NCBI GenBank assembly: GCA_947498595.1
Contig: CANMKX010000007.1
Location: 1 to 64,000 of the forward strand
Source of the DNA: an uncultured Aquimarina sp.
GTDB lineage: Bacteria; Bacteroidota; Bacteroidia; Flavobacteriales; Flavobacteriaceae
Reading direction: 5' to 3'
Length of the DNA stretch: 64,000 bases
Of this stretch, positions 4,246-56,249 are shown one piece after another. The notes beneath the pieces were generated by a model. That model did no database searches. It saw only the letters and a program-made list of their open reading frames with translations, and was not told the DNA's origin. The translations under genes were made by a program, and so were the position numbers. Position 1 is the stretch's first letter. Each line of letters begins with the position of its first letter.

Positions 4246-4258
4246 AAAATCTTAAATA

Positions 4259-6468: not shown

Positions 6469-6511
6469 TGATATTTATCATCTTTCATACTAGTATCTAG
6501 AAGTAAATTTG
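6469..6511 (+). promoter_or_regulatory. Promoter with FNR-type box (second P-box gene)
   Basis: TGATATTTATCA (6469-6480) matches TGAT-N4-ATCA exactly. The -7 box TAAATTTG lies at 6504-6511, and centre-to-box spacing is again 29.5 bp. The coding start is 45 bp after the -7 box. The equal spacing in two otherwise different upstream regions supports a real activator site. Confidence 0.65.
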
Positions 6512-6555
6512 CTGTTGCCTAAAAAAAACATAATTTAACATTAACTCAAATCAAC

Positions 6556-7332: not shown

Positions 7333-7365
7333 TATATATTATCCCTTTTACATTTACATAAATAA

Positions 7366-7404
7366 AAAAGTAGTATCAGATCTTATCTGGTACTACTTTT
7401 CTTT
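7366..7404 (+). terminator. Intrinsic terminator after the P-box genes
   Basis: A 15-bp stem (7366-7380 with 7386-7400) has one G-U pair and a 5-base loop and is followed by TTTTCTTTT. Confidence 0.8.
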
Positions 7405-7441
7405 TGGAAGGAAGGTTAATTCAAATTAATATTATTACAAT

Positions 7442-7480
7442 AAACAGCGCCCTTACTATATATAATAAGGGCGCTGTTTT
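7442..7480. terminator. Strong terminator of the sigma-factor/small-protein unit
   Basis: A perfect 14-bp GC-rich stem (7442-7455 with 7466-7479) encloses a 10-base loop. On the minus strand it begins one base after the stop codon of the 47-aa gene (7480-7623). Transcription from the sigma-factor side would therefore stop directly after that gene. Confidence 0.85.
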
Positions 7481-7623
7481 TAATTTAGAAGTATTTCAAA
7501 CTTCATTGCTTTATAATCTATAACACTTAAAGCCTTTGAATAATTTAAAAGAAAATCTATTGTCTTCTTTTTAGGTTGAAATTGTTGTTCTTCTGAATAG
7601 GATGAAAAGTAAAAATTTGTCAT
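7480..7623 (-). CDS. Small conserved-looking protein, 47 aa
   Basis: ATG at 7623 to TAA at 7480 gives 47 residues. The start is MTNFYFSSYSEEQQFQPKKK and the end is DYKAMKFEILLN. It is hydrophilic, with no signal or membrane segment. Three things support it as a real gene: its balanced amino-acid make-up, its place 73 bp after the ECF sigma factor stop, and a strong terminator placed exactly at its stop codon. I believe similar short proteins occur next to this sigma factor in other flavobacteria, but cannot check here. Function unknown. It could be a partner or modulator of the sigma factor, which is inference. Confidence 0.7.
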   Translation of the reverse strand: MTNFYFSSYSEEQQFQPKKKTIDFLLNYSKALSVIDYKAMKFEILLN

Positions 7624-7696
7624 ATAATACTTTTAGGTTAACTAACTATTATGTATATAACGGGCAAAAGTCACTTTTATTGTATTATCGTTCTTT

Positions 7697-8281
7697 TTAA
7701 TTTGTTAAAACGATATTATGCTTCTCTATAACTTTACGTAAATTGATTAATGCGTAACGCATTCTCCCTAAAGCAGTATTAATACTTACTCCTGTTTTTT
7801 CTGAAATTTCTTTAAAACTCATATCTCTATACATGCGCATCATTAAAACCTCTTTTTGATCTTCAGGTAACTCATCAATTAGTTTACGAATATCACTTTC
7901 GACTTGATTTTTAATTAATCTATGCTCTGCATTTAAAGATCCATCACTTATAATTGAAAAAATACTAAATTCTCCATTGTCTTCAAACTTTGGCATACGA
8001 TTGTCTTTTCTAAAATGATCTATTACCAAATTGTGAGCAATACGCATAACCCAAGGTAAAAATTTACCTTCTTCATTATAACGCCCTTTTTTAAGGGTAT
8101 TAATTACTTTTATAAAAGTATCTTGAAAAATATCTTCAGAAATATCGCGATCAAACACTTTTGAATAGATAAAACTATAAATACGTTGCTTATGTCTTTC
8201 AATTAATATAGCAAGCGCTTCTTCATTACCTTTAATATAGTCACTTACGAGTACAGCATCAGAGAGAGTAGTGCATTTCAT
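7697..8281 (-). CDS. ECF-type RNA polymerase sigma factor
   Basis: The 194-aa protein has the two ECF domains. Region 2 spans about residues 20-95 (DRDISEDIFQDTFIKVINTL, then GKFLPWVMRIAHNLVIDHFR). Region 4 spans about 130-185 (LPEDQKEVLMMRMYRDMSFKEIS, EKTGVSINTALGRMRYALINLRK), with a helix-turn-helix that reads the -35/-33 element. No anti-sigma gene is adjacent, unlike many ECF systems, so its control is unknown. The small 47-aa gene lies directly downstream and may be co-transcribed. uvrA is divergent at 8520; a shared stress response is possible, but the sequence does not show it. Confidence 0.93.
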   Translation of the reverse strand: MKCTTLSDAVLVSDYIKGNEEALAILIERHKQRIYSFIYSKVFDRDISEDIFQDTFIKVINTLKKGRYNEEGKFLPWVMRIAHNLVIDHFRKDNRMPKFEDNGEFSIFSIISDGSLNAEHRLIKNQVESDIRKLIDELPEDQKEVLMMRMYRDMSFKEISEKTGVSINTALGRMRYALINLRKVIEKHNIVLTN

Positions 8282-8487
8282 ACTATTACTTTTTTAGTTC
8301 TACAATGTAGATTAGGGTTATTTATAATACGTTTAAAAAAGTAATAATATATCTATAGGCGATGCTTTTAAGATTGCGTTAATGAATTGCTAATATAGCA
8401 ACAAAATTGAAAAAACAAGCATGTTTTGTTAATTTTTTTAACTGCAACCTCCTATTTAGAATACTTCAAATACTGCTAATGATTGAT

Positions 8488-8495
8488 TATCTTTG
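8488..8495 (+). promoter_or_regulatory. Likely uvrA -7 promoter box
   Basis: TATCTTTG matches the Bacteroidota consensus TAnnTTTG and lies 25 bp before the uvrA start. No clear TTG at -33 was found. Confidence 0.5.
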
Positions 8496-8519
8496 ACGCT
8501 TTGACGGTAATTCATAAAG

Positions 8520-11303: not shown

Positions 11304-11384
11304 TTTTAACAAAAATGTAATATTCTTAAGCGTAAGTTATGCTCTCTTTTTCGGCTAAAAGTATTTAATCGTAAAACTATACTC

Positions 11385-12023
11385 ATGTCATTAACTGATG
11401 CTTTAAAAGCACATGCAGATCAGTCTGCTCAAAAAATACCACAATCTCTTCAAACTGTTATGAAAACAGCTACAAAAGAGTTGGATGAAAGTGGTATTCT
11501 TGAGTTAGCATTAAAAACTGGGGATCAAATACCTGAAATTACATTACCTAATAGTATGGGAAATCAAATTTCTATACAAAATATATTAAAAGACAAAAAC
11601 ATCGTATTAACCTTTTACAGAGGTGGTTGGTGTCCTTATTGTAATTTAGAATTAAAAGCTTTACAAGATGCTTTACCACAGCTAAAGTCTTCTAATGCTA
11701 CTCTAGTTGCTATTACACCTGAAACTCCTGACAATTCATTATCTACAGCTGAAAAAAATGCATTAGACTTTGAAATATTAACTGATGCAAATAATACTAT
11801 TGCTAGAGCTTTTGGATTGGTTTTTAAATTGCCAGAAAATCTTGTTTCTGTTTATAAAGATTTTAATATCGATTTGATTAAAAGTAATGGAGATGCTTCT
11901 CAAGAATTGCCTTTAGCCGCAACTTATATTATAGACACTTCTGGTAAAATCATCTATGATTTTGTTAGTGTTGACTATAAACTTAGAGCTGATCCTGCTG
12001 ATATTCTTGCTGTATTACAATAA
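11385..12023 (+). CDS. Peroxiredoxin-like AhpC/TSA family protein
   Basis: The 212-aa protein has a thioredoxin fold with active-site block TFYRGGWCPYCNLELKAL (about residues 75-92). The CPYC pair replaces the usual peroxiredoxin PxxxTxxC. The core continues with VAITPETPDNS, EILTDANNTIARAFGLVF and the C-terminal AATYIIDTSGKIIYDFVS strand. Such proteins are classed as peroxiredoxin-like; reductase or peroxidase activity with a disulfide between the two Cys is plausible. The first 60 residues form a helical extension (SLTDALKAHADQSAQKIPQS). There is no signal peptide, so it is cytosolic. It has its own terminator at 12035. Confidence 0.85.
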   Translation: MSLTDALKAHADQSAQKIPQSLQTVMKTATKELDESGILELALKTGDQIPEITLPNSMGNQISIQNILKDKNIVLTFYRGGWCPYCNLELKALQDALPQLKSSNATLVAITPETPDNSLSTAEKNALDFEILTDANNTIARAFGLVFKLPENLVSVYKDFNIDLIKSNGDASQELPLAATYIIDTSGKIIYDFVSVDYKLRADPADILAVLQ

Positions 12024-12034
12024 TATAATTCAAA

Positions 12035-12072
12035 AAAATTCCCTAAATGAGTATTCATTTAGGGAATTTTAA
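12035..12072. terminator. Intrinsic terminator between convergent genes
   Basis: A perfect 16-bp stem (12035-12050 with 12055-12070) with a 4-base loop. It serves the plus gene ending at 12023 and probably the minus gene ending at 12077. Confidence 0.85.
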
Positions 12073-12076
12073 AACT

Positions 12077-13198
12077 CTAATTAATATTTTTCTTAAAAGT
12101 TCTTCGTTTTTTATGCAATTCGTGATCGTAACCATTCCAAAGTGCTTGAATTGCTTTGTTTTCTTCAAGCTCAGGATTTGTTTCAACAATTTTGATTCCG
12201 TTTCTGAGAAATGTTTCATTCATTTCTTTAAAAATTAAAGCTGTAATTCCCTTATTCTGAAATTTAGGATCAACACCTATTAGATAAAATGCAGCTGTAT
12301 CATTAGTACGCTGCGCTTTTAATAAGTGTAAAAAACCAAATGGGAACATTTTTCCATTCATTTTCTTTAATGCCTTTGAAAAAGATGGCATTACTATAGC
12401 AAAGGCTATTAATTTTCCTTTTTCATCTGCAATACATGTAATATAGTCTGGATTAACATATTGAATATATTTATCCTTATAAGTATTAACCTGGTATTGT
12501 TGAATAGGTACAAATGTTTGCAAGACACTATATGTTTCATTTAGTAATGCAAACATATCGTCAACATAAGGGATTATCTCCTTTGTGTTTTTAAATTTTA
12601 ATACCTTTAAATTATAGCGTTCTTTTATAATTGCAGAAAACTTCAGTACTTTTTCTTTGATAGATTCTGGTGTTTTTATTCGGTATTCTACCCAAGTAGC
12701 AGCCGGTTCAAAGCTTAACGCTTCCATATGTTCTTGGTAATACGGATAATTATACCAAGTAATCATCGTGTTTAGTTCTTCAAAACCTTCTATTAAAAGT
12801 CCTGCTTTATCCATATTTGAAAAACCAACTGGACCTTCAATAAACTCTAATTGATGTTTCTTACCATAGTCTATTACGGTATTTAATAAAGCTTTAGTCA
12901 CTTCAATATCATCAATTGCATCAAACCAACCGAATCTGACTTTAGATTTTTTTTGGTCATTAATTTCTATCCAATTAACGATCGCTGCAATACGCCCAAC
13001 AATTTCTCCATCTTTAAACGCCAAGAAAAAAGCGGCCTCAGCATTTTTGAATACTGGGTTTTTTTTGGGGTTCATAGTATCTAATTCCTCTTTTATGATA
13101 GGAGGAACATAGTACGGACAATCTTTATATAAATGAAAAGGAAATTTAACAAACTTTGTTAAATCTCCCTTAGAAGTAATTTCTTTTATATTAATCAT
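12077..13198 (-). CDS. GNAT-fold N-acetyltransferase-like protein
   Basis: The 373-aa protein has two GNAT-like halves. The first (about residues 1-180) has FFLAFKDGEIVGRIAAIVN, the strand pair before an acetyl-CoA loop. The second (about 195-373) has ITCIADEKGKLIAFAIVMPS and AAFYLIGVDPKFQNKGITALIF, in which QNKG resembles the Q/RxxGxG/A acetyl-CoA-binding loop. Flavobacterial homologues of this length are usually left without a substrate. It is cytosolic. It lies downstream of the barrel gene at 13285 on the same strand, but an 86-bp AT-rich gap makes a separate promoter likely. The substrate is unknown. Confidence 0.75.
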   Translation of the reverse strand: MINIKEITSKGDLTKFVKFPFHLYKDCPYYVPPIIKEELDTMNPKKNPVFKNAEAAFFLAFKDGEIVGRIAAIVNWIEINDQKKSKVRFGWFDAIDDIEVTKALLNTVIDYGKKHQLEFIEGPVGFSNMDKAGLLIEGFEELNTMITWYNYPYYQEHMEALSFEPAATWVEYRIKTPESIKEKVLKFSAIIKERYNLKVLKFKNTKEIIPYVDDMFALLNETYSVLQTFVPIQQYQVNTYKDKYIQYVNPDYITCIADEKGKLIAFAIVMPSFSKALKKMNGKMFPFGFLHLLKAQRTNDTAAFYLIGVDPKFQNKGITALIFKEMNETFLRNGIKIVETNPELEENKAIQALWNGYDHELHKKRRTFKKNIN

Positions 13199-13284
13199 AT
13201 ACTTTAACTAAGTAAGGCAAATATAAAACCCTTTTGTTAATTATTAACTAATAATTGTATATCAATTCTTGATATTTTTAGTAC

Positions 13285-14958
13285 TTATTCATCTTCTTCA
13301 TTTCCATTATCTGCATTTTCTTTTTCTTCCTTTTTACGCTTCTTTTCTTCAGCCTTCTTACGCTTTTCTTCTTCTTTTTTACGCTTCTTTTCTTCTTTAC
13401 GCTTACGCTTTTCTTCAGCTTTCTTACGTTTTTCTTCTTCTTTTTTACGTTTCTTTTCAGCTTTCTCCTGTTCTTTCTCTTCATCTTCTGTCAAAAACTC
13501 TCGATCCAATGCAGCCAATTCTTCGTCAATACTTCTTAATTCTTCATTAACTTCTTCTGACTTCTCTTCTTTTTTTGCAGGAGTATTATTGCTTTTTTGA
13601 TCGTCTTTCTTTTCTCCATTATCTTTTTCTTCTTCCTTCTCTATTTGATCAAGCTCGGCATCAATTTCATCTATTAACTTTTGCTTTCTTTTCTCTTCTT
13701 TCTTTGCTTCTTTTTCTGCCTTTTTAGCATCTTTAGCCTCTTGTTTTAAACGCTTTTTCTCTTCTTTACGGCGCTTTTTCTCTTCTTTTTTAGATAGCTT
13801 TTCGTTTTCTATTCGTTCTCTTTCTAATCTTAACTCAGTACGTTTGGTATCCAAATCGGTATCGATATTAGATCTAAGGCTGTCATTTTCAAACTGATTA
13901 ATAAATTCTCTCTTACCTTTCTTCTCTATTTTTTCTTCCCCATCTTCATTTTCATCATCTTCTTCATCATCATCTCTATTATTTTTTTCTTCTTCGTTTT
14001 CTCCTTCTTCTTTATTTTCTAATTCTTCGTCCTTTTTAATTCCAGATTCTAACCCTTCTTTTTCAATAATTTCATCTTTCTTGTGCCAATCAAATCGATA
14101 GGCTCCTCCAAAACTAACTGTAAACCTAGAAGGTGTATCTTTAAAATTTGTTGCTACATTAACATCTACTTGCAGGTTTTTATTAAACAAATAAGCTCCT
14201 CCAGCTCTTAATATATCATCACTATAAAAATCACTCTTTTGCCCTTGATATTCTGCAAATGCAGCCCATTTTTCATTAAATGTATGCGTTCCAGTAATAA
14301 TCCACCCAAATGTTGGCGCTTCTGTTGTTATTTTATCTATAATTAAATTCGTTACTAATACCCAGTTACCTTTATAAGAGGTTGCCCAATTATTTTGTGC
14401 AGCTATTACTATTTTAGGGCTCACTGTAGCATCATTCTCAAAAGTAAATGGATTGTCTTTTGTAATAATATTAGCTCCTGCAAAAACGGATACTGCAGGT
14501 ATTAATGTTTTCCATTTAAATTTATGCTGTGCTTTCCAACTATTTAAGTTTACTGAATCTTTTTTTGGATTTTTATAAGGATCATAAATTAAATACTTTG
14601 CTCCTAATGTGTTTACTACAAAATTTGATTGTTTGATTTTATCTTCACTCCCACCTCTTGGTATTGTTAATGTTTGGCTTCTAAAACTTCCTGTAAGACT
14701 TACTTCTAATTGCTCAAAAAAAGCACCATATCTCGCTGCATAGTCAAAATCTAGCGCATTTGTTTTGGTATTTAACAGATCATGTTTTTGTTTATCTATA
14801 CCAAATCCTGCTTCAAATTGTAGTACATTATTCCCTACAGAAAACGCTCCTATAGAAGTTCCTGGACGATTGGTATTAATCGTTTCTGTATATTGACCAT
14901 TTGCTGATATATATATTAAAAATATAAACAGATAGTGTAGTAGATACTTAGGATTCAT
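13285..14958 (-). CDS. Outer-membrane beta-barrel protein with giant K/E-rich tail
   Basis: I start at the ATG at 14958, which gives a clean signal peptide (MNPKYLLHYLFIFLIYISANG); an ATG seven codons upstream (14979) is the alternative. About residues 20-290 look like a transporter/MetA-pathway-type barrel: alternating strands, NTNRPGTSIGAFSVGNNVLQFEAGFG at the start, and HTFNEKWAAFAEYQGQ and GGAYLFNKNLQVDVNVATNF near the end. From about residue 293 the protein turns into some 265 residues of Lys, Glu, Asp and Arg. This includes near-identical KRKKEEEKRKKAEEKRK-type repeats and shorter acidic linkers. Such sequence favours coiled coil or a single long alpha helix. The DNA here is a purine/pyrimidine-biased imperfect repeat (about 13320-13470). 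The role of the tail is unknown. Confidence 0.8.
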   Translation of the reverse strand: MNPKYLLHYLFIFLIYISANGQYTETINTNRPGTSIGAFSVGNNVLQFEAGFGIDKQKHDLLNTKTNALDFDYAARYGAFFEQLEVSLTGSFRSQTLTIPRGGSEDKIKQSNFVVNTLGAKYLIYDPYKNPKKDSVNLNSWKAQHKFKWKTLIPAVSVFAGANIITKDNPFTFENDATVSPKIVIAAQNNWATSYKGNWVLVTNLIIDKITTEAPTFGWIITGTHTFNEKWAAFAEYQGQKSDFYSDDILRAGGAYLFNKNLQVDVNVATNFKDTPSRFTVSFGGAYRFDWHKKDEIIEKEGLESGIKKDEELENKEEGENEEEKNNRDDDEEDDENEDGEEKIEKKGKREFINQFENDSLRSNIDTDLDTKRTELRLERERIENEKLSKKEEKKRRKEEKKRLKQEAKDAKKAEKEAKKEEKRKQKLIDEIDAELDQIEKEEEKDNGEKKDDQKSNNTPAKKEEKSEEVNEELRSIDEELAALDREFLTEDEEKEQEKAEKKRKKEEEKRKKAEEKRKRKEEKKRKKEEEKRKKAEEKKRKKEEKENADNGNEEDE

Positions 14959-43745: not shown

Positions 43746-44474
43746 ATGAAAAACATTTATATATATCTTCTTATTATATTTTTATCATTCACTCAATGTA
43801 ACACCAAAATCCCCTCAAATGAAATAGCTTCATTACCTCCTCCAAAAATTACTCCTAAAGTGTTTGAAAGTATCAAAGCTTTAACAACTCCTACATTAGA
43901 TGGTATTTCTAATGATAAAATATGGGAACATATTAAATGGCAACCTATAGATCAATTTTGGAAAGGATCTAAAAACTCAATTATAGATTTTTCGGGAGAT
44001 TTTAAACTTAGTTGGACACCAGAAGGTCTTTATTTTTTAATACGAATTAAAGATGATGTTTTTTCTAATTCAATTGAGCATAATTTAAAGAAAGATCAAA
44101 TTTTACTAACAGTGCATGCAAGTCCTACTATTAAAAACTCTCCAACGTTAAAATATTATCTTGATCTTGACAAAGGCTATAAAGCCGTTTCTATGAATCC
44201 AAGTTCAGTTATTGCTAATGAACATATGGCTATACAGCGTTACGAAACTACAGATTACTCGTATTGGGAGTGTAAATTGGTTACTTTTGATACTCCATTA
44301 ACTCCTAATAAAATACAAGAGGCTATGCTTTTACATCCTGGTATTACTCTTGATTTTTCTGTTAGTTATATTGATTATGATCCGTTATTAAAAGTTAAAA
44401 AACATATTGGATCTACAAAAGACTCTGTAACACTTGCTACGTATATTTTAAAAGAATCACCTTTTGAAGACTAA
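43746..44474 (+). CDS. Lipoprotein with CBM9-like (DOMON-type) domain
   Basis: The 242-aa product has a lipoprotein signal (IIFLSFTQC, Cys near residue 19). It then has a family 9 carbohydrate-binding-like sandwich: PTLDGISNDKIWEHIKWQPIDQFW, DFSGDFKLSWTPEGLYFLIRIKDDVF and YWECKLVTFDTPLTPNKIQ. These are the conserved LDG...W, DL..YF.I.V.D and E..I strands. Such domains bind sugars or, in other members, haem. The last 11 bases overlap the MFS gene, so the two are translationally coupled and probably form one functional unit with the carrier. Confidence 0.8.
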   Translation: MKNIYIYLLIIFLSFTQCNTKIPSNEIASLPPPKITPKVFESIKALTTPTLDGISNDKIWEHIKWQPIDQFWKGSKNSIIDFSGDFKLSWTPEGLYFLIRIKDDVFSNSIEHNLKKDQILLTVHASPTIKNSPTLKYYLDLDKGYKAVSMNPSSVIANEHMAIQRYETTDYSYWECKLVTFDTPLTPNKIQEAMLLHPGITLDFSVSYIDYDPLLKVKKHIGSTKDSVTLATYILKESPFED

Positions 44475-45636
44475 ACAGTATATTCTCCCAATCATCATTA
44501 TAGCACAATTTTTTTGTACCTCATTATGGTTTGCTGGAAATGCCATTTTGGATGATTTAGTAATATCAATTGGTATCCCTCCTTCTATGATTGCTAGTAT
44601 ATTATCAGCAGTTCAATTAGGGTTTATTATTGGTACTCTTGTATTTGCAATATTTACAATTACAGATCGCTTTTCTCCTTCTTATGTTTTTTTTATTTGC
44701 GCAATGTTAGGTAGTTTTTGTAATCTATCAATTGTATTATTTGACGTTACTACTATCAGTCTATTATTTTTACGTTTTTCAACGGGGTTCTTTTTAGCAG
44801 GAATTTATCCAGTAGGTATGAAAATTGCGGCTGATTATTATAAAGAAGGCTTAGGAAAAGCTCTTGGATATCTCGTTGGTGCATTGGTTTTGGGAACCGC
44901 TTTTCCTCATTTACTTAAAGTTATTTCATTTAGTGGTAACTACACTCTTGTTATATACTGTACTTCATTACTGGCCTTAATCGGTGGACTTCTTATACTA
45001 TTGGGTGTACCTAATGGTCCGTATAGAACTCGAACTACATCATTACAATTAAACGCTGTTTTCACGTTATTTCAAAACATTAAATTCAGAAAAGCTTCAT
45101 TTGGTTATTTTGGGCATATGTGGGAATTATACACCTTCTGGGGTTTTCTTCCATTACTATTAAAACTATATGCTACAAAACAAAACCTTGTATTAAATAT
45201 TTCTCTATGGTCATTTTATTGTATCGCAATTGGTAGCATATCGTGTATTATTGGTGGTTACTTAGCTATTAGGTATCATAGTAAAAAAGTAGCTTTGTAT
45301 TCTTTAATTATTTCTGGAATTTGTTGTTTGATTTCTCCTTTATTATTTCATACTCCTTTTCCTTTATTTATCAGCATTTTATTAGTTTGGGGAATGGCTG
45401 TAATATCTGATTCTCCTCAATTTTCAACTTTGGTTGCACAAGCTGCCCCGCCTTCATTAAAGGGCACTGGATTAACTATCGTTAACTCTATTGGTTTTAG
45501 TTTAACAATAATAAGTATTCAAATTTTACAATACCTATCTACTATTATTTCTGATAATTTTATTTTTCTATTTCTTGCTTTAGGCCCTCTTTTTGGTATT
45601 TATCATTTTTTATATTCAAGAAAAAAAACCGTATAA
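44464..45636 (+). CDS. Major facilitator superfamily transporter
   Basis: The 390-aa protein has about 12 hydrophobic segments. I use the TTG at 44464, overlapping the previous gene by 11 bp, because the first helix (YILPIIIIAQFFCTSLWFAGNAIL) starts directly after it and the next ATG would cut into it. The loop between helices 2 and 3 has ITDRFSPSYVF; RFSTGFFLAGIYPVGMKIAADYYKEGLGKALG carries the charged motif after helix 4-5. The substrate is unknown; lipoprotein coupling and the downstream acyl cassette make a metabolite or polymer precursor possible. The next gene (ACP) begins 119 bp downstream after a small palindrome. Confidence 0.85.
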   Translation: MKTKQYILPIIIIAQFFCTSLWFAGNAILDDLVISIGIPPSMIASILSAVQLGFIIGTLVFAIFTITDRFSPSYVFFICAMLGSFCNLSIVLFDVTTISLLFLRFSTGFFLAGIYPVGMKIAADYYKEGLGKALGYLVGALVLGTAFPHLLKVISFSGNYTLVIYCTSLLALIGGLLILLGVPNGPYRTRTTSLQLNAVFTLFQNIKFRKASFGYFGHMWELYTFWGFLPLLLKLYATKQNLVLNISLWSFYCIAIGSISCIIGGYLAIRYHSKKVALYSLIISGICCLISPLLFHTPFPLFISILLVWGMAVISDSPQFSTLVAQAAPPSLKGTGLTIVNSIGFSLTIISIQILQYLSTIISDNFIFLFLALGPLFGIYHFLYSRKKTV

Positions 45637-45755: not shown

Positions 45756-45989
45756 ATGAATATCCAATTATGGCTGCAAGAAAAAATAGCTGAAGAAACT
45801 GACTTACCTATTAATGAAATTCTATTTGACGTTGAATTTACTGATTTTAATATGGATTCTTTAGCCATATTAACTATCACTTTTGATTTAGAATCAATTT
45901 TAAACATAGAAGAAATTGACCCTTCAATTTTCACTGAGTATAATACTATTAATAAACTTACTACATGGATCGAAAATCATCAAAAATAA
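45756..45989 (+). CDS. Acyl carrier protein (dedicated)
   Basis: The 77-aa protein is an acidic four-helix carrier. The phosphopantetheine Ser is in [17 protein letters not shown] (the DSL motif, Ser near residue 34). It is not the fatty-acid AcpP, whose motif is normally GADSLD with a different helix II. The acidic C-terminal half ([19 protein letters not shown]) is typical of specialised carriers such as DltC or PKS/NRPS carriers. Its end overlaps the P450 start by 25 bp, a strong hint that the P450 acts on a substrate bound to this carrier. The loading enzyme is not in the cassette. Confidence 0.88.
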
Positions 45990-47188
45990 TTTGGAACCCA
46001 TTTACCAAAGGATATTTTCAAAATCCATATGAGCATCTAAAAGATTGTAGAGAGCAAAATCCTATACACATAGGATCACATAATGCTTGGATGTTTTTTA
46101 GACATGACGATATAAGTCGTATACTACGCTCTAATGAGTATTCTGTATCTGATTTAAGTAAATATTTTGAGGAAAAAGAATCTTATATCTTTAATAATTC
46201 TAATGCTTGTCCATATCTAGCTTCAGGAACAAAAAAATGGCCTATGTATCTTAATGGTAGTGATCATAAAAATGTACGTGCTATTATGGGAAAATCTTTT
46301 AAAGAATTTGATTTACCTTCGATTCTTACAAGCGCTATCGATTCTTTACATCAATCTTATCAAAAAGATTCTGATTTAGACCTTGTAGATTACTGTGCCC
46401 TATTTATATATTTTGTAACAAAACAATTTTTAAATTTTGATGATGACATTTCCTTAAAAAGGATAAAAAAATATTCTAATCTACTAGCAATTAGTCAGGA
46501 TATTTATATTCCAAAACAAATTTATCAAAAAATAAATTCTGAACTTATTTGGGGAAAAGGTATTTTCTCTAATTCTTCATATAAAAATAATATCATAAAA
46601 ATTTCTAATGAATTAAATTTAGATTATTCAGAAGATGATATTGATTCTATTACAGCCATCTCTCTTATGGCTTCTTTTGAAACTTCAAAAGATAGTTTAT
46701 CTGTTGCATTATTAGAAATCATGAAGCATCCTGAATTGATTGACTACGTTCTAGAATGTGATACTAAATCTTTAAATATTTTAATAGAAGAACTTTTTAG
46801 GTTTTCATCACCTTTACAATACACAGTAAGGATTAATAATAAAGATTTAAATATAGACAATATCAATATTCCAAAAAACTCTAAGTTATACTTATCCATT
46901 GCTAGTGCTAATAGAGATCCTAATGCTTTTAGTGATCCTGATAAAATTATTATTGATCGTAAGCCTAATGATCATTTAGCTTTTGGAGGTGGAGCACATT
47001 TCTGTTTAGGAGCTCAAATTGCACGACAAGAAATGCGATATTGTTTAAAACCAATGATTCAATTTTTAAAAAATTATAAAATAGATACTTCTAAAGAGCT
47101 TAAATGGTCTAGACAAATATTTATGAGGACTATCAAATCTATCCCTTTAACTTCTTCTGCAAAAAAATTAGTTTCCATTAATGGCTAG
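45965..47188 (+). CDS. Cytochrome P450
   Basis: The 407-aa soluble bacterial P450 starts with [20 protein letters not shown], the usual start. The I-helix region is [11 protein letters not shown] (Glu-Thr near residue 238, the acid-alcohol pair), and the K-helix ExxR is EELFR (near 274). The haem loop is [18 protein letters not shown] (Cys near 347). All key residues are present, so an active monooxygenase is expected. It needs ferredoxin and reductase from elsewhere. It overlaps the ACP by 25 bp and the MBOAT gene by 8 bp. ACP-linked P450s (BioI-type) oxidise acyl chains, and PCP-linked ones oxidise amino acids. Here the substrate is inferred to be carrier-bound, not proven. Confidence 0.92.
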
Positions 47189-48557
47189 TATCAATCTATT
47201 ATTAATTATAACTTACATAGTTTTATCTATAGTATTGGTATATGTGCTTCCTAAAAAAAGAAAATGGTATGCCCTATTATGTACTAGCATATTTTTCTAT
47301 TATGTTCTTGTAGGAAGTAAAATTCTATTCTTAATTCTATTTTCATTAATCATTTATAAAGCTGGTTTTTTTATTCATAAAAAAAGATTTAGAGTTACTT
47401 TTATTATCATAGGAATACTTTTGCCTTTAATTGTATCTAAATTTTTAATTTCTAATTCTCATTTTGAAAATTACTCGTCTAAGCATATTACGTTTACAAG
47501 CTGGTCCACTATTTTACAAATCATAGGTATCTCTTATATTACTTTTAATGCTATTAGTTATTTAATTGATATCAAGAAAAAATTCATCAAACCAGAAGGT
47601 AATTTTTTCTTTTTGTTATTATACCTAATTTATTTTCCAGCAATTTTCTCTGGCCCTTTACATCGTTTTAAATATTTAACTTCTCAATTTAAAAACATCA
47701 CTATAACAAGTGACTCTTTATCAAGTGGTTTGCGCTTAATTTTATGGGGTTTATTTAAAAATATGGTAATCGCTCAAAGAATATTCTCAATATTTGTAAC
47801 ACTTAAATCCAGCGATATTAGTGGTGCATATTACCTCTTATTAGGTTTACTCTTTTTTTTATACCTCTATTGTAATTTTAGTTCGTTTATTGATTTTTTT
47901 CAAGGAGTATCACAAATTTTCAATATTAAATTGAAAAATAATTTTAGAAATAGGATTTATGTTTCTGCTTCAAGACAAGAATTTTGGAAAGGTTGGCATA
48001 TAACTCTTAACGAATGGTTTAGAGATTATTTTTTCTTTATGCTCGCTAAAAAGGATAAGAAAAGAAAATACACTGATTATATTCTTCTTCTCACTTTTTT
48101 ATTAATTGCATTATGGCATGAAATTTCAATTACTTTATTGATTTGGGGATTATGTAATGCTTCATGGATAATTTTAGAAAAAAAGGTCGATTTTCAAAAA
48201 TTCGCATATCCAAAATTAAGAAAACTAGGTGGTGTGTTTTATCATTTATTTTTCTCTAGTTTACTTGCCTTGATTTTCATTTCTAATGATTTTCACTCCT
48301 TATTTTTAAAAATATTCTTTACTCCTTCTACTTTTCCTATTGAATCAATGGCTAATCATACGAACAATATTGTCATTATCATGTTTTCTTTTTTAATTAT
48401 GGATTACCATTTTAAAAAAGCAAAAAAAGAACGATTCGATGATTATATAGGCTCGAAAAAAACATTTAACAGGTGGTTTATATACTTCAAATTAACTTTG
48501 ATTATTCTCATTTTTGGAGCTACTGGTGGAATTGATAATTACTATATACTTTTCTAA
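47181..48557 (+). CDS. MBOAT family O-acyltransferase (AlgI/DltB-like)
   Basis: The 458-aa protein has about 11 hydrophobic segments. It has the landmarks of the AlgI/DltB branch: [22 protein letters not shown] (about residues 152-173), [24 protein letters not shown] (about 259-282) with the WHITL His, and [20 protein letters not shown] (about 310-329) with the catalytic His of the WHE/WHG motif. These enzymes take acyl groups from a cytosolic carrier and pass them to an extracytoplasmic acceptor through a membrane funnel. The AlgI family uses acetyl groups and DltB uses D-Ala-DltC; here the adjacent ACP and P450 suggest an oxidised acyl-ACP donor. The SGNH partner gene follows after 13 bp. 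Confidence 0.92.
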
Positions 48558-48570
48558 AAATAATAGATTC

Positions 48571-49506
48571 ATGTATTTAAAAAAAACTTCCTTTAAATTA
48601 TTCTTAATAGTATCTGTTTTTTCAGTTCTCATTTTTTTTATCAAAAAAAGCAATAAACCTCAACCCTATTTTATAAAAGCTAATAAAAGTATTTTAGAAA
48701 AACATTCTAGTACTTCTTATTATTTTATTGGCTCAAGTAGAGTGCAAAAAAGTGTTGATCCAAATAATATTAAATCAACCTTAGGTACACAAAACATATT
48801 TAATATAGGTATTAGCGGTGCTACTTTTCTCGAAAATACCATTCTTGCTGATTATATTATAAAAACTCCTAATAGAAAAGTTTTATTTATAGAATTGAGC
48901 CCAATATTATCTTCTTTTTCAAAAACATCTATACAGTTTTATGACACTAATAATATGACTCCATTTAAAACTTTAAATTTATTAACCAATTCGCTTTCTT
49001 TATCTAAAAGATTAAATTTCAATTTTAATATTTACAATAGTTATTTATTCTCGAAAATAGCGATTCGAGAAGATATAAAGAATTTAATCAACCCTCAATT
49101 AGATATTGATAATCGAATTTTAATGGGATATTCTCCCGTGATTAAAAATGATACAAAATCCTTATCATCATTTCTTACTTATCAAGAAATGATGGTAACC
49201 GATTATAGTTCGGTTAACTTTAAAAATCATTATGGTTACATAGATCACTTGATAAATTTATCTAAAAAACACAATACTAAAATCGTTTTTTTCTTACCAC
49301 TTACATATAGATCTCAAAAAGAAAAAAATATCGTAATCCCATTATTCCGATCATTACCTAAAAACATGAAATTGGAATATTCTAAAAAGTTTCTTGATAG
49401 TATGCGCAATCCTAAATACTTATCTGATATTAATCATTTTAATGAAGCAGGTGCGCAACAATATTCCTCATTACTATTTCCATTACTAAAAGACTTTTTA
49501 TATTAA
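48571..49506 (+). CDS. SGNH/GDSL-fold membrane protein (DltD/AlgX-like partner)
   Basis: The product is 311 aa from ATG 48571; an earlier in-frame ATG overlaps the MBOAT gene and would hide the anchor. The N-terminal helix (KLFLIVSVFSVLIFFI) is followed by a large soluble part, topology as in DltD. YYFIGSSRVQKSVDP (about residues 50-64) matches the nucleophile block (Ser in GSSR). FNIGISGATFLENTILADYI (about 76-95) holds the second block (conserved Gly), and LSDINHFNEAGAQQYSSLL (about 284-302) the Asp/His pair DxxH. MBOAT proteins of this branch work with such SGNH partners (AlgX/J, PatB, DltD). A role as final acyl acceptor-transferase is inference. Confidence 0.82.
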   Translation: MYLKKTSFKLFLIVSVFSVLIFFIKKSNKPQPYFIKANKSILEKHSSTSYYFIGSSRVQKSVDPNNIKSTLGTQNIFNIGISGATFLENTILADYIIKTPNRKVLFIELSPILSSFSKTSIQFYDTNNMTPFKTLNLLTNSLSLSKRLNFNFNIYNSYLFSKIAIREDIKNLINPQLDIDNRILMGYSPVIKNDTKSLSSFLTYQEMMVTDYSSVNFKNHYGYIDHLINLSKKHNTKIVFFLPLTYRSQKEKNIVIPLFRSLPKNMKLEYSKKFLDSMRNPKYLSDINHFNEAGAQQYSSLLFPLLKDFLY

Positions 49507-49554: not shown

Positions 49555-52500
49555 TTAACTATGATCACTTATTGTATCTTCGATATAACCATCTCTAGAT
49601 TTAATAAATTCAATAAATTTATTATAAATTAAATTTTTAGAAAGTAACGAATCATTTCCTATTAAAAAAAGTTGTTCTTTTGCTCTTGTTAAGGCCACAT
49701 TTAACTTTCTATCAACTGTTTCTTCATCATTCATGTTAATGATACCATCTAACTGAAAAGGATTATTTATGCTAAATGAGACTATAATAACATCTCGTTG
49801 ACTTCCTTGATATCTTTCAACTGTATCAACTGTTATATTTTCATGATTCGGGATTTTTTCTTCTTCTAATTTTTGTTTTATTAATGCTATTTGATTTCTA
49901 AAAGGTGCAATCACTCCTATTGTTTTGGCGGTATCATAAGGTTTATTATTAACATCATATAATTTTTTAATTCTACTAATAATTTCAACCACTTTCTTTG
50001 CCTCAAAATCATTGCATTTGTTAAAATAATCTTTTTTTGAACTACTATGTACACTCGAAAAGAAAGCTATTCTTTTCTTTGCTAATATCTGCGTTAATGT
50101 ATTTTGACTTTTTGATATAAAATTTAACGGAATATCCTGTCGTTTTAATTTCTTTTGATCTTCTGGTTTTAAATTAGGTCTATCAAATGCTTGTTTAAGC
50201 TTTGAATCATAAAAAGTATGATTTGGAAATAAAGCAATTTCCTTATGCATTCTTCCTTGATATGTTAATTCATCAAATGCGAATTCTAATGTATTATTTT
50301 CACAGAATTTATATAACCGTTCAAAAAGTGAATTTTTACGACTCTGTAGACCTATATTCTTTAATACTTCACTTTTTGTTTTAGAACTCTCTTTACTCTG
50401 TAAAACAATAGCTGGTAATTGTTTATGATCTCCGATCAGAATAAATTTCTCACATTTCTGCAAAAGTCCTATTATTTGAGGTTCTAATATTTGCGAAGCT
50501 TCATCTACAATTACCGTATCAAATTTCTTTAATTTAAAAAGCTCCATTTTACTTGCCATAGAAGCGACTGTGGAAACATAAATTCTATGTTTTTGTAAAA
50601 TTTCCTTCAAATCTTTTCTTGTGGCAGTATTTTTACTAATATTCGAAAGTAAATTATGCTTGTGCTGTTGAGAACAGGATAACTCATTTCCAATTCGTAT
50701 AAAATTACGGTCAGATCTTCCTCTATTTACGTTACTATCATTGACATCATCAAAATTTATTATTGCATTATTTACAGTTTCACATATTTCATCTACTGCT
50801 CTATTAGTATATGCTAATAACAAAATATTAGTCTCGTCTTTTTTATATAATTCACTTACTAATTCTCTTAATATTATAGATGTTTTACCTGTGCCTGGTG
50901 GTCCGTTTAAAAGGAAATAGTTTTTTGCTGACAAGGCTTTATTAAGTATCCTATTTTGTTCATCAGAAAAGTCTCTATTATCATAGGCTACAGAATTTCC
51001 TTTGACTGGTTTTGCTGTCGTTAAAATTAATTCTCTTCTCTTTTTTTTGGAAGAAGATATAAATGTATATAGGTTTTTATACATAGCTCTGAAAGAACTA
51101 TCCATAGAATCTTTCTCTAATGCCCATTTATCAAAACCTTCAAAATATTTAGTATTACTTTGCTGATATCTAAAGCTTAAAATCACTTCTTTTTTTGAAA
51201 GCTTCTTTATATTACACTTAAAAATTTGATTCGTTGTTACTAAGTCATCATCGTTATTTCTAGGGTACAAAATACAGGTATCCCCTTTTCTAAAGTTTAC
51301 AAACTCATTTTCCTTATTTTTTCTGGAAAGCGTAATTTCTTTTTCTTCTTTATCTATTAGGTTTTTAGAAATTTCAAGGTCATATAATATTTCAAACTTC
51401 TCTTTCTTTTCTATAAAAGAATTCAACCAAAGATTCGCTAGTCCATTTCCTTGATGATTTGGATTATCAGAATCTCCAATTTTTGTTAGGTATTGTTCTT
51501 TAGCAATAAAACTCACGAATGAATAGAAATAATGTTCTTCTATCTCGCTCATTCCAGTTATAGGTTTCATTACCTTCTTTATTTGAGGTTCTAAATATTT
51601 TTCTCTAAAATTCTTAGTAACATTAGCACTATTGATTAAACTATTTGGTGTAATTTTATTTATAATTTCTTTTGTTATAGCAATGTCATCAAGCGTTAAA
51701 TAATATTCGTTAGTAATAATACTATTTCTTATATTAAAAACACTTTGGATTTGTGCAAGTGATGGTTTGTTATATCGTAAATTGTGATCTGATACTTTTG
51801 AGTATAGTATATACCCATCTATCTTGGTGCTTATTTTATGAAAATCTATTTTCTGTAATAAAGCAATTAACTGATAGTAAAGATATAACTGAGCTCTATG
51901 ATTTGGTTTTATACTCGTACCATCATCTGGGAAAGGAGCTCCTCCAGATTTTAATTCTATAATTTTTTGATGTTTATTTGTACTCGACAATTCTAAAATA
52001 TCAAGTCTTCCTTGAATACCGTATAACTCACATAAAAAAGAAGGCTCAAGAAGCGCATTCTCTATTGATATATCATTTTTTATAAAATCATTTGTAATAA
52101 CTTTTTTGATATTTTCAAATTGCAATTCTGCATTTACAATATATTCCTTAAACTTTTCAGTAGTTTTTAAATCCTCACAAATTGTATATTCAAAAGGGTA
52201 GGTTTGGAAATCTTTTTTTATAATATTTTTAAAAGAAATTACTTCATTTTCGTTCTCTGCTAATAATTCATCTACAACTAGATTCGCAAAGTTCCCTAAC
52301 CTAATGTGTTTAGAGTTTGGAACTTCTTCAAACTTTGATTTCATATAGAAAAGTTCTGTTTTTCCATAATCTTGAAAACACTCTGCTATAGATGAAACAT
52401 CAACTAAATAATCAGGTTCTAGTATAATAAATTTTGGAAAATATTCATTGAATTCATCAATCTCTATATTAACCAAATATAATTGAGCTCCTTTCCAAAA

Positions 52501-53040
52501 ATCTTTAACATCAAGATGTTCTTCAAAGTAATCAAATTTTACAGTGATGTATTCATCTGCTTGATTTTTATCCTCAATACATATTAATTTGTCATTATGA
52601 ATACTTACAATTTCTGCTCGTAGCCTCTCTATTCTTCTTTTTTTAGAATTTTCTTTTTTAGCTTGGTATTCTATAAGAGGATAAATTTGTATTAATTCCT
52701 TAGGAACTGCAACACCAAAAGCTTCTGCTATAAAATCACTAAGATATTTAAAGTGCGTTTCATACTCATTCTGACTAGGTATATAAGATTCTTTTAATAC
52801 TTTATTTGATGTAATTCGTACTCCATGAATTCTTTTTGATAAAGATTGTTTTTCGCAAACAAATGACAATCGCGAAAACAAATTAGAAAATTGTAAAGAT
52901 TCTTCTCTTGTTATTTTTTTTGTAATTCTATCTAATAAAATTCTGAATCTCCTATATTTATCTTTAATAGTATGATCACTTTTATAGACTTTAAGTAACT
53001 CTTCAAAATATGTTATAACTATATTATTTTCTATTGTCAT
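49555..53040 (-). CDS. Dna2-like protein: PD-(D/E)XK nuclease fused to SF1 helicase
   Basis: The 1161-aa protein has three parts. The N-terminus (about residues 1-300) has no known motif. The nuclease part (about 330-400) shows GIQGRLDILEL, then KIIELKSGG and later HRAQLYLYYQL; this is the D...ExK...QxxxY order of RecB/Cas4-type nucleases, but without the cysteines of an Fe-S cluster. The helicase part (about 690-1161) has Walker A GPPGTGKTS near 707, Walker B VIVDEASQI near 845, GDHKQLPAIV near 866, YQGSQRDVIIVSFS near 1090 and the final VALTRAKEQLFLIGN. Its SF1B/UPF1-like helicase motifs are complete. It could act in replication or recombination repair, or in phage defence. It stands alone, convergent with the SGNH gene. 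Confidence 0.85.
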   Translation of the reverse strand: MTIENNIVITYFEELLKVYKSDHTIKDKYRRFRILLDRITKKITREESLQFSNLFSRLSFVCEKQSLSKRIHGVRITSNKVLKESYIPSQNEYETHFKYLSDFIAEAFGVAVPKELIQIYPLIEYQAKKENSKKRRIERLRAEIVSIHNDKLICIEDKNQADEYITVKFDYFEEHLDVKDFWKGAQLYLVNIEIDEFNEYFPKFIILEPDYLVDVSSIAECFQDYGKTELFYMKSKFEEVPNSKHIRLGNFANLVVDELLAENENEVISFKNIIKKDFQTYPFEYTICEDLKTTEKFKEYIVNAELQFENIKKVITNDFIKNDISIENALLEPSFLCELYGIQGRLDILELSSTNKHQKIIELKSGGAPFPDDGTSIKPNHRAQLYLYYQLIALLQKIDFHKISTKIDGYILYSKVSDHNLRYNKPSLAQIQSVFNIRNSIITNEYYLTLDDIAITKEIINKITPNSLINSANVTKNFREKYLEPQIKKVMKPITGMSEIEEHYFYSFVSFIAKEQYLTKIGDSDNPNHQGNGLANLWLNSFIEKKEKFEILYDLEISKNLIDKEEKEITLSRKNKENEFVNFRKGDTCILYPRNNDDDLVTTNQIFKCNIKKLSKKEVILSFRYQQSNTKYFEGFDKWALEKDSMDSSFRAMYKNLYTFISSSKKKRRELILTTAKPVKGNSVAYDNRDFSDEQNRILNKALSAKNYFLLNGPPGTGKTSIILRELVSELYKKDETNILLLAYTNRAVDEICETVNNAIINFDDVNDSNVNRGRSDRNFIRIGNELSCSQQHKHNLLSNISKNTATRKDLKEILQKHRIYVSTVASMASKMELFKLKKFDTVIVDEASQILEPQIIGLLQKCEKFILIGDHKQLPAIVLQSKESSKTKSEVLKNIGLQSRKNSLFERLYKFCENNTLEFAFDELTYQGRMHKEIALFPNHTFYDSKLKQAFDRPNLKPEDQKKLKRQDIPLNFISKSQNTLTQILAKKRIAFFSSVHSSSKKDYFNKCNDFEAKKVVEIISRIKKLYDVNNKPYDTAKTIGVIAPFRNQIALIKQKLEEEKIPNHENITVDTVERYQGSQRDVIIVSFSINNPFQLDGIINMNDEETVDRKLNVALTRAKEQLFLIGNDSLLSKNLIYNKFIEFIKSRDGYIEDTISDHS

Positions 53041-53270: not shown

Positions 53271-54512
53271 TTATACAGTTTCTATTTCGTACCCAGTAAC
53301 TAATTGATTTTTAAATCTACTTAATAAAAATGGTGTAATATCTATTTCTGGAGGTCTATCGTAGATGATATCGTTAATCATTCTAGATGTTATAGCAGAT
53401 GTTAAAATTCCTGTTCTAAAATGTCCACAAGCATTAATATATCCTTCTAATCCTTCTACTTTTCCTAAAATTGGTACTTCGTCTGGTGTTCCTGGTCGCA
53501 AACCTGACCATGTACGTTTGCAATTCATACCTTTAAGAATAGGAAAAGCTTTTGTTGCTCCCCTTGCTAATCCTTGCAATTCTTTGAAGGTATTGGTTGT
53601 GTCGAATCCTTTATTTTCGGTTGTGCTTCCTATTAGTATTTCTCCATTATCTTTTTGGGCAATATAGCAATCACTTGTACTAAAACACGAGTTCATTATT
53701 TTTGGCATTTTTTCAGATAATAATATCTGTCCTTTTACAGGTGTCACAGGTATTTTAACACCTACCATCTTGCCTATTTCTGGTGCCCAAGCTCCTGCAG
53801 CATTAATTACTTTATCGCATGATATATACGTATCTGTAGTTTTTACTCCAACAACTTTATTGCCTACAACTTCTATATCTATTACTTCTCCATGAACTAC
53901 TTCTACTCCTTGAACTCTAGATGCATTTCTAAATGCGTTCATTAATAAATAAGGGTTTACTTGATCATCTTTCAAGAAAGTTAATGCTCCAATAGCATTT
54001 TTGTTAGCATAGGGCTCATCGGCTATTAATTGTTGTTGATCCATCCATGCCATTTGATCTTTTAAATGAGGAATTGATTGATAGATGTTTTGTGCATAAG
54101 CCATATCATCATCATCGTACATTAGAAATTTAAGACCTGTTTTTTCTAATTTAAAATCAACCCCTCCAATATCTTTTAATTCTCTCCAGAGGTTCGGAAA
54201 AAGTTCATTACTCTTTAGACAAAAATCGAAGAAAAAAGGAGGTAGTTGATGAGGTCTTTCTATCTCAATACCTCCGCCATTTGCTTCTTGTTTACGTTTT
54301 GATAATGTTTTAAAGAAAATCACTCCACATCCTAGTCCTACAGATTCTCCAATTGCCCATAATCCTCCCGCTGAAGCTTGCGTTGCATTGCCTGGTTTTT
54401 TAGTATCTACTAATATAACTGATAGATCAGAATTTTTACTCAACTCATACGCTATACTTGTACCTATTACTCCACCTCCTATTACTATTATATCTGCTGA
54501 TTTGTTTTTCAT
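53271..54512 (-). CDS. FAD-dependent amino-/imino-acid oxidase subunit (HcnC/DAO-like)
   Basis: The 413-aa protein has an N-terminal dinucleotide fold ADIIVIGGGVIGTSIAYELSK (about residues 5-25). It has the DAO family pattern: GNATQASAGGLWAIGES (about 41-57), INAAGAWAPEIGKMVG (about 238-253), PVTPVKGQILLSE, and the C-terminal YINACGHFRTGILTSAITSRM (about 366-386), which contacts FAD. It matches HcnC, D-hydroxyproline dehydrogenase beta and the small subunit of opine oxidase, all with about 410-420 residues. It is the third gene of a three-gene operon; the preceding gene ends 2 bp upstream. It should oxidise an amino or imino acid and pass electrons to the other subunits. The substrate is unknown. 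Confidence 0.88.
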   Translation of the reverse strand: MKNKSADIIVIGGGVIGTSIAYELSKNSDLSVILVDTKKPGNATQASAGGLWAIGESVGLGCGVIFFKTLSKRKQEANGGGIEIERPHQLPPFFFDFCLKSNELFPNLWRELKDIGGVDFKLEKTGLKFLMYDDDDMAYAQNIYQSIPHLKDQMAWMDQQQLIADEPYANKNAIGALTFLKDDQVNPYLLMNAFRNASRVQGVEVVHGEVIDIEVVGNKVVGVKTTDTYISCDKVINAAGAWAPEIGKMVGVKIPVTPVKGQILLSEKMPKIMNSCFSTSDCYIAQKDNGEILIGSTTENKGFDTTNTFKELQGLARGATKAFPILKGMNCKRTWSGLRPGTPDEVPILGKVEGLEGYINACGHFRTGILTSAITSRMINDIIYDRPPEIDITPFLLSRFKNQLVTGYEIETV

Positions 54513-54514
54513 AA

Positions 54515-55942
54515 TTACTCGTTTTCAATTATTGATTCAAATGGAATTGCTGCCATAGGAAATCTTGGCTTTAATCCTTGAATGTTTTCTGGAAGTTTAT
54601 CTAATTTCTCTGCTAAATATTCTTTACAAAAATTACCACATATTTTACCTTGACAATCTCCCATTCCTACTCTAGTATTAATCTTTAAAGAAGGTAAATC
54701 TTTTACGCCATCAGAAATTGCTTTATCTATCTCGTTTCGCTTAACATTCTCGCATCGACAAATAATAGTATCTGCATTAGGTAAAGCCATTAACCCTTTT
54801 TTTAAACCTGAATAATCTTCAAAAGTATGTTGAAATTTCTTTAATCTATGTATCTCTTTATATATCGGACTTGCTATTTTCTCTGCTTCTTTCTCGCTAA
54901 TTTCTTTTATATCTATAAGGTACCCAAGTGCCGCTAATTTTCCTTCTAATACAGCAACATCTGCCCCGTAAATCCCACTATTATCTCCTGCTGTGTATAT
55001 AGATTCTATATTAGTTCGTTGCCATTTATCTAATTTAGGAAAAACACCTCCAGCACTCTTTTCATAGGTATGTTCGCAAGTAAGCATTTCTGTTAATTGT
55101 ACTCTAGGAATGTACCCATATCCTATCCCTGCACAATCAACTTGAATTTTAAAAGCTTTCTCTTTTATAGGAAACCAATCATCTGTATAGGGCGCTATGG
55201 TCAATTCTTCTACACGTTCATCTCCAGCTGCCGAAACAATACCATATCCTTGATAAAAAGGTATTTTATGTTTTTTTAAGTAACGCATATATTCAATCCC
55301 TTCTTGTAACAATTTTTTATTTGCCAAAAGGTTTAAAGCGTTTTTTGCTATCTCTTTTTTCTTTCCAGATTCTACAACAGCAACAACCTCAACACCTCCC
55401 ATATGAAGTTGTTTAGCTGCTACCAATAATAGTGGTCCAGTACCTATAAGTGCAACTTTATTACCTGGCTTAACACTCCCACACTTTACTTGTAACTGGA
55501 TACCTCCTACACTCATTATTCCTGGCAATGTCCATCCAGGAAATGGTTGTGCTCGTTCATAACATCCTGCACAAATAATCAATGCTTCGTTTGAGATTGT
55601 TCTAAACTTTCCTCTTTGTAAAACTCCTAGCTCTCCAGTTAAAGAAAAATCTCCTAGTACTTCACTTTCCAGTTCTAACCTTACATTGGCTTTATGTTTT
55701 TCAAATTCTTCAAATAATGCTATTGCTTTTTTATATGTTTTTTCATTTCTATATAAACTAGTATTCAGTCCTTTTTCTGGTTGTTTATAGATAGCTCCTC
55801 CTATTTTTGGGTTTTCATCTATTATCGTTGATCTAACACCGTACTTAGATAATTGAATCGCAGCTGATAGTCCCGCTGGTCCTGCTCCTATTATTGTAAC
55901 TTCTTTGTGTGATTTCATAAGGTTAGCTTCTTTATTTTTCAA
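54515..55942 (-). CDS. NAD(P)/FAD oxidoreductase with BFD-like [2Fe-2S] domain (HcnB-like)
   Basis: The 475-aa protein starts with the Rossmann motif EVTIIGAGPAGLSAAIQLSK (about residues 13-32). LIICAGCYERAQPFPGWTLPGI (about 125-146) and VALIGTGPLLLVAAKQL (about 168-184) form the second nucleotide site. SIYTAGDNSGIYGADVAVLEGKLA is the C-terminal flavin contact. From about 385 an iron-sulfur binding BFD-like segment has IICRCENVKRNEIDKAI and VGMGDCQGKICGNFC, with four or more Cys. This is the HcnB / D-hydroxyproline dehydrogenase alpha type. It overlaps the small 2Fe-2S gene by 11 bp and ends 2 bp before the DAO gene. It likely relays electrons to the respiratory chain. Confidence 0.88.
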   Translation of the reverse strand: MKNKEANLMKSHKEVTIIGAGPAGLSAAIQLSKYGVRSTIIDENPKIGGAIYKQPEKGLNTSLYRNEKTYKKAIALFEEFEKHKANVRLELESEVLGDFSLTGELGVLQRGKFRTISNEALIICAGCYERAQPFPGWTLPGIMSVGGIQLQVKCGSVKPGNKVALIGTGPLLLVAAKQLHMGGVEVVAVVESGKKKEIAKNALNLLANKKLLQEGIEYMRYLKKHKIPFYQGYGIVSAAGDERVEELTIAPYTDDWFPIKEKAFKIQVDCAGIGYGYIPRVQLTEMLTCEHTYEKSAGGVFPKLDKWQRTNIESIYTAGDNSGIYGADVAVLEGKLAALGYLIDIKEISEKEAEKIASPIYKEIHRLKKFQHTFEDYSGLKKGLMALPNADTIICRCENVKRNEIDKAISDGVKDLPSLKINTRVGMGDCQGKICGNFCKEYLAEKLDKLPENIQGLKPRFPMAAIPFESIIENE

Positions 55943-56249
55943 CTAGATATTCGTTTACAATATCTTTTGTATTTGATTGAGTTTTTATGCTCATTCCGTC
56001 ATAAACTGTCGTTTTACAAGCTCTACGCTTAAACCCATCCACTACAACACTACAACAAAAACAAACTCCCATTCCACAATAAGCTCCAGTTTTTATATTA
56101 TGATCATTTTTAGAAATATCTACTTTTCCATAAGCTAATAATGTACTTAATATCGTTTCTCCTTTATGGGCAATTTTCTTTTCATCATTAATTATAATAT
56201 TTAATTCTTCTGTTGATGGTTTACTAATATCATAGCCTCTATTCATCAT
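55932..56249 (-). CDS. [2Fe-2S] ferredoxin-like subunit (HcnA-like)
   Basis: The 105-aa protein has the plant-type ferredoxin cluster motif GAYCGMGVCFCCSVVVDG (about residues 53-70) and a further Cys in KRRACKT (about 73-79). The extra Cys (FCC) makes it less regular than usual. It is the same length as HcnA (104-105 aa) and the gamma subunit of D-hydroxyproline dehydrogenase. It begins the operon; its end overlaps the next gene by 11 bp. FNR-type boxes lie upstream (56567 and 56591). The exact substrate of the complex cannot be read from this subunit. Confidence 0.88.
   Translation of the reverse strand: MMNRGYDISKPSTEELNIIINDEKKIAHKGETILSTLLAYGKVDISKNDHNIKTGAYCGMGVCFCCSVVVDGFKRRACKTTVYDGMSIKTQSNTKDIVNEYLVEK

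Follow-up and report, generated by a model that had tools for sequence, protein, structure and literature searches.

We found that four genes packed on the forward strand of an uncultured Aquimarina sp. contig (45756..49506) encode, in order, an acyl carrier protein (ACP), a cytochrome P450, a DltB-like MBOAT protein and an SGNH-fold protein, which probably constitute a self-contained, Dlt-like cassette for acyl export with a P450 oxidation step, for which we infer the chemical steps, the kind of oxidation and the acceptor. Positions are those of the window, which is the 64,000-nucleotide stretch of contig CANMKX010000007.1 that was analysed. The gene order, protein families, key residues and conservation reported below are direct observations, as is a gene resembling fatty acyl-AMP ligases (FAALs) in related loci. 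A first-pass annotation made from the sequence alone had read the row as a possible oxidised-acyl transfer system, which our results support, with oxidation on the carrier and the destination of the chain as its conjectural parts. We regard it as evenly balanced whether the cassette stands for a whole class of export machines, which would use a P450 to oxidise the chain on a carrier of its own and a DltB-like MBOAT, with a tyrosine shuttle in its own tail, to move the oxidised chain across the inner membrane to the surface. The row is a recurrent candidate for such a link, in which a P450 stands between loading and export, alongside a carrier and, in a related form, a ligase of the fatty-acid type. 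If true, the reading would join lipopeptide-type starter chemistry to envelope acylation, couple P450 chemistry directly to that acylation, and provide an origin for oxidised acyl groups at the cell surface of Bacteroidota.

The four-gene row recurs across Bacteroidota

Re-checking of all coordinates on the sequence confirmed the tight, single-strand packing that had been annotated. The ACP is a stand-alone protein of 77 residues (45756..45989; PP-binding, 3.2e-9), the gene for which overlaps that of the 407-residue P450 (45965..47188; p450, 1.6e-23) by 25 bp (45965..45989). The P450 gene overlaps that of the 458-residue MBOAT protein (47181..48557) by 8 bp, and 13 bp separate the latter from the gene for the 311-residue SGNH-fold protein (48571..49506).

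All four genes occur in this order at 21 loci (the window and 20 others) in at least six Bacteroidota genera, which we call the core set. Conservation of this order across Bacteroidota had been named as a check on the initial reading, and it extends far beyond close relatives. A further 14 loci, called type II and described below, bring the total to 35 cassettes. The most specific part is the SGNH protein, with 23 proteins matching at E <= 0.001, the window's own counted. A scan of a genome collection of 84,980 species with the SGNH-family alignment, using a single peptide pattern, returned 11 loci, of which nine contain the whole row with its order unchanged (five Aquimarina, Chryseosolibacter indicus, Flavobacterium laiguense, Mucilaginibacter sp. 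Bleaf8 and one Chitinophagaceae genome). The same scan returned a row that ends at a contig end within the P450 (L027) and a plain MBOAT-SGNH pair from a deltaproteobacterium (L029).

Searches with the other proteins gave a similar distribution. The P450 was present at 59% identity or more in 7 of 188 genomes, comprising the window's own and its relatives, and all seven have the row; eight other genomes of this set encode P450s at 25-31% identity only. An MBOAT profile (E <= 1e-60) matched in 8 of 396 genomes of the class, which correspond to the window, two complete rows (L038 and L039), a row cut by a contig end with the P450 and ACP out of view (L040), the type II locus L041 and three plain MBOATs. 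The same profile matched in 1/22 and 2/64 genomes of two smaller orders, which are the same genomes repeated, and in 26 of 390 genomes of a further order, made up of 8 core rows, 13 type II rows and 5 plain MBOATs. A P450 profile found 106 proteins at E <= 1e-40, all from Bacteroidota where the organism is named; because the weakest match was 1.2e-110, the edge of the family looks sharp within the 6201 candidates passed by a word pre-filter. As a proxy for linkage, 43 of 66 lengths of P450-bearing contigs (5 kb or longer) were seen again among the contigs of the 120 MBOAT homologues listed.

Trees that included the other rows placed the core P450s in one clade (99/99) and the core MBOATs likewise (100/100). 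Divergence was correlated among all four proteins (Spearman 0.76-0.89; 210 pairs from 21 loci), for which shared descent alone suffices. The flanking genes, read from open reading frames (ORFs), vary between genera, and recurrence amid different flanks rules out chance neighbours.

The site of the row also differs within Aquimarina. In six other Aquimarina genomes, it sits between a gene that we take to be WbqC-like and the mutL side. The window's genome contains the same stretch, collinear over 18 ORFs that match those of L019 and free of the cassette, and its cassette lies on another contig, which indicates that the cassette moved, or was gained or lost, as a whole unit. Carriage on a plasmid was rejected, as the best plasmid matches of the window P450 are just 25% identical. 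In the P450 tree, the window copy joins those of Mucilaginibacter and the Chitinophagaceae genome (96/92); by plain identity, each of the four window proteins has its closest counterparts in other Aquimarina, and neither the MBOAT nor the SGNH tree settles the placement. The window copy may have arrived by horizontal transfer, which the P450 tree and the differing site favour and plain identity does not.

The P450 may act on a carrier-bound chain

The annotated P450 proved to be complete. The heme-ligating Cys347, the I-helix pair Glu239-Thr240 and the ExxR residues Glu276 and Arg279 are each kept in 35/35 cassettes, which leads us to expect a monooxygenase. No redox partner gene is present in the row. 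By profile, the nearest solved P450s are PksS (1.3e-42) and then BioI (1.3e-38). According to excerpts of two reports, BioI cleaves ACP-linked fatty acids (PMC10741444, PMC7645780). Among 10 core P450s, 15 of 28 mapped BioI ligand-contact positions are invariant, compared with 98 of 398 alignment columns (P 0.0006). We treat this as weak support, because any pocket would give it and one residue of the 31-position contact table, 3 positions of which did not align, is at odds with the numbering. BioI being the second-nearest solved structure raises the prospect that the P450 trims the chain on the ACP to a short dicarboxyl or aldehyde product, which is then exported. We consider such cleavage very unlikely, given that PksS is nearer, that the window residue differs from BioI at 23 of the 28 mapped positions, and that a similarity of this degree is insufficient to specify the reaction.

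Gene order provides a second line of evidence. In all 35 cassettes, the ACP and P450 genes adjoin on one strand. Their overlap is 22-28 bp in 19 of the 21 core rows (the window and 18 of the 20 others) and 1 bp in the remaining two. Furthermore, a search of 72,556 plasmid records yielded only two P450s similar to that of the window at E <= 1e-30, both from Nostoc; each has an AMP-binding gene immediately upstream and polyketide synthase (PKS) or nonribosomal peptide synthetase (NRPS) genes downstream. The one AMP-binding protein tested, from L117, resembles FAALs and carries a fused carrier domain. By analogy with the nearest solved structures and from the gene order, we propose that the cassette P450 would oxidise a chain bound to the carrier. 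Alternatively, the P450 could oxidise the acceptor or the finished lipid, with the ACP, MBOAT and SGNH proteins moving an ordinary acyl group. The only plasmid match of a type II P450 (L084) fits this alternative, as it lies in an aromatic-degradation cluster; the adjoining and overlapping ACP and P450 genes and the co-occurrence elsewhere of AMP-ligase, carrier and P450 ahead of PKS/NRPS genes make it unlikely.

Loading of the carrier protein

Ser35 of the window ACP, the attachment site (45858-45860, +), is kept in 35/35 cassettes, and the protein has a net charge of -13. Against NCBIfam, it matched an AcpP model (9.3e-6) and Pks13 (1.2e-4), and no DltC model was among its matches at E <= 0.1. 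The ACPs of two type II loci, L041 (1.6e-12) and L084 (5.1e-6), resemble the N-terminal ACP of Pks13, a part that receives its acyl chain from a FAAL. For core locus L077, the ACP gave no match at 1e-5. Grouping of the ACP with housekeeping AcpP had been named in the first-pass annotation as a result that would speak against it. The window ACP shares 16 of 75 residues with the AcpP-like protein of its own genome, which was so labelled from reading of its sequence, and 51 of 76 with another cassette ACP; an identity as housekeeping AcpP is unsupported. In an ACP tree, NRPS carriers branch apart, and the branching order of the other ACPs is without clear support.

In the type II form, the ACP, P450 and MBOAT genes occur in a row at 14 loci, and the SGNH gene is next in 13; L041 shows a weak SGNH match on the opposite strand. 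A ligase gene similar to that of L084 (phmmer, E <= 1e-20) adjoins the ACP gene at 13 of the 14 loci, and L086 is without one. For the four type II ligases tested (L041, L083, L084 and L087), the top NCBIfam models were a PKS/NRPS with a matching N-terminal part, followed by fatty-acid-AMP ligases, all of them scoring under the model cut-offs; DltA models scored far lower than FAAL models. FAALs of solved structure, FadD32 and FadD23 included, are among the best matches of the L041 ligase. In type II, the place of DltA is filled by the adjoining FAAL-like gene, which suggests, from sequence comparison, a fatty-acid load. DltA had been annotated as absent, which stands for the genes beside the window row, and type II loci do carry an activating gene of the FAAL-like kind. 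In L096, the FAAL-like gene (11040-12679, -) is split into two overlapping ORFs.

Loading of the core ACP is the main gap in the scheme, and we infer its source. In core loci L075 and L076, from Microscilla-like genomes, an AMP-ligase gene lies directly downstream of the SGNH gene on the same strand (4974-6680 and 9791-11416, respectively); the L076 ligase, the only one of the two tested, scores above the threshold set for a long-chain-fatty-acid-CoA ligase model (552 vs 476 bits). A third core locus, L082, which lacks a FAAL gene next to the ACP gene, has a weak, 72-bit match about 4.6 kb off.

The MBOAT and SGNH proteins resemble an export pair

The MBOAT protein has the active residue His313, which is kept in 44/44 MBOATs (35 from cassettes and 9 plain), and a second active position at His273. 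It scored 120 bits against the curated LTA_dltB model, below the cut-off of 375, and DltB is the nearest solved fold, which suggests that the protein works like DltB and is no member of that family. In the excerpted text of PMC11035591, DltB takes its donor from a carrier. The C-terminal tail NYYILF (48537..48554, +) contains Tyr455, a putative acyl-shuttle tyrosine, for which excerpts of PMC12148441 provide a precedent in the FXYXXF motif of PatA and DltX. The Y..F part of this motif ends the MBOAT in 21/21 core, 14/14 type II and 9/9 plain proteins, and in 118 of 120 among the homologues listed. A separate locus, L044, has four MBOAT genes within 10 kb (3662-13468), two of them with an SGNH match directly behind.

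The SGNH protein was assigned to its family by fold comparison, and scans of Pfam and NCBIfam gave no match to the DltD family. Its predicted structure (mean predicted local distance difference test, pLDDT, 88.2) has an N-terminal helix at residues 2-27, which would serve as a membrane anchor. Ser56 and His289 are kept in 35/35 cassettes, and the third residue of interest is Asp286. Another reading would confine the pair to the membrane, with a lipid of the membrane acylated by the MBOAT and then edited by the SGNH protein as an esterase, so that nothing is exported. The N-terminal helix of the SGNH protein and the tyrosine tail of the MBOAT, as in MBOAT-SGNH export pairs, make this route quite improbable. 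In type II locus L091, a sodium:solute symporter gene (10416-11810) adjoins the SGNH gene, as identified with Pfam for that locus; judged by first residues, a symporter adjoins it in 11 of 12 type II loci of the genus coded g341, the exception being L086.

Proposed mechanism and relation to known systems

The order of events that we propose for Dlt-like export of an oxidised chain follows the precedents of Dlt, PatA/PatB and BioI. The holo-ACP would be loaded with a fatty acyl chain by the FAAL in type II and, in the core form, by fatty acid synthase or a ligase encoded at another site. While bound to the ACP, the chain would be oxidised by the P450. The MBOAT would accept the chain from the ACP at the cytoplasmic face, via His313, and pass it to its own Tyr455 on the periplasmic side, from which the membrane-anchored SGNH protein would pick it up on Ser56 and deliver it to an acceptor in the envelope, either a glycan or a lipid.

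Along with the aromatic-degradation match described above, several observations weigh against this scheme. A FAAL gene lies beside the ACP gene in 0/21 core loci, and a search of the window's own genome with a FAAL query was empty but uninformative (another search gave 17 AMP-binding matches). The first residue of the FXYXXF motif, which is Phe in 14/14 type II MBOATs, is Asn in the core MBOATs (Ala in L082) and Phe in 0/21. Plain MBOATs that lack a carrier share the tyrosine tail, which therefore does not speak for a carrier. The predicted MBOAT model has low confidence around the active site, Asp286 of the SGNH protein is gone in 4 of 35 cassettes (kept in 17/21 core rows and 31/35 overall), and we recognised no gene for an acceptor next to the cassette. 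Finally, the MBOAT tree puts those of type II loci L041 and L083 with the plain MBOATs, and so the core and type II forms need not share one origin. The P450 and MBOAT trees give no support for a single origin, as they do not show type II as sister to the core. To judge from these trees, the association appears either to be old, with exchanges, or to have arisen more than once, and either history argues for a working link among the genes.

The cassette resembles the Dlt system (DltA, DltB, DltC, DltD and DltX) in its carrier donor, DltB-like MBOAT, SGNH membrane protein and putative tyrosine shuttle. It differs in that DltA is lacking beside the window row, a P450 is added, the host is a Gram-negative member of the Bacteroidota, and the shuttle tail is fused to the MBOAT, whereas Dlt uses a separate DltX. 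The Dlt core parts seen in the first-pass annotation hold for the carrier with its Ser35, the DltB-like MBOAT and the SGNH fold, but not at the level of family models, as the LTA_dltB cut-off is missed and the DltD family is not matched. PatA/PatB and AlgI-type MBOAT-SGNH O-acetyltransferases likewise pair an SGNH partner with an MBOAT that has a C-terminal tyrosine tail. In excerpts of PMC12148441, these enzymes use an acyl-CoA donor and no carrier; in contrast, the cassette has a carrier and a P450, and the core tail begins with Asn where theirs begins with Phe. BioI (CYP107H1), which acts on acyl-ACP, and PksS are alike to the cassette P450 as its nearest solved structures; however, BioI serves pimelate formation, whereas the cassette P450 comes with an ACP of its own and a putative export pair. 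The FAAL-ACP-P450 starter units on Nostoc plasmids (L117, and L119 with the same gene order) also place ligase, carrier and P450 in a row, but the chain there goes to PKS/NRPS and in the cassette would go to the MBOAT-SGNH pair, and the core form lacks an adjoining FAAL. Among the openly licensed papers listed by our searches, none describes this gene set in its title or the start of its abstract, consistent with the earlier statement that no named system has it. The parts are of known kinds, and their combination appears to be new.

Neighbouring genes

Scans of the window locus for promoters and terminators found nothing exceeding shuffled sequences. Upstream, on the same strand and 119 bp from the cassette, lie genes for a CBM9-like lipoprotein and an MFS transporter (43746-45636). 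These were rejected as members of the unit on account of this gap and their occurrence in 0/11 of the loci from the SGNH-alignment scan (phmmer). Downstream is a convergent gene (49555-53040, -) for a superfamily 1 helicase of 1161 residues, which has a weak Dna2-type nuclease match in Pfam and for which the best PADLOC match is MkoA (1.3e-64 over residues 571-1145), presumably the Mokosh defence helicase. Beyond it, three tightly spaced genes (53271-56249, -) encode a DAO FAD-dependent oxidoreductase, a pyridine nucleotide-disulphide oxidoreductase and a 2Fe-2S protein, an arrangement that we take to resemble HcnABC or amino-acid dehydrogenases.
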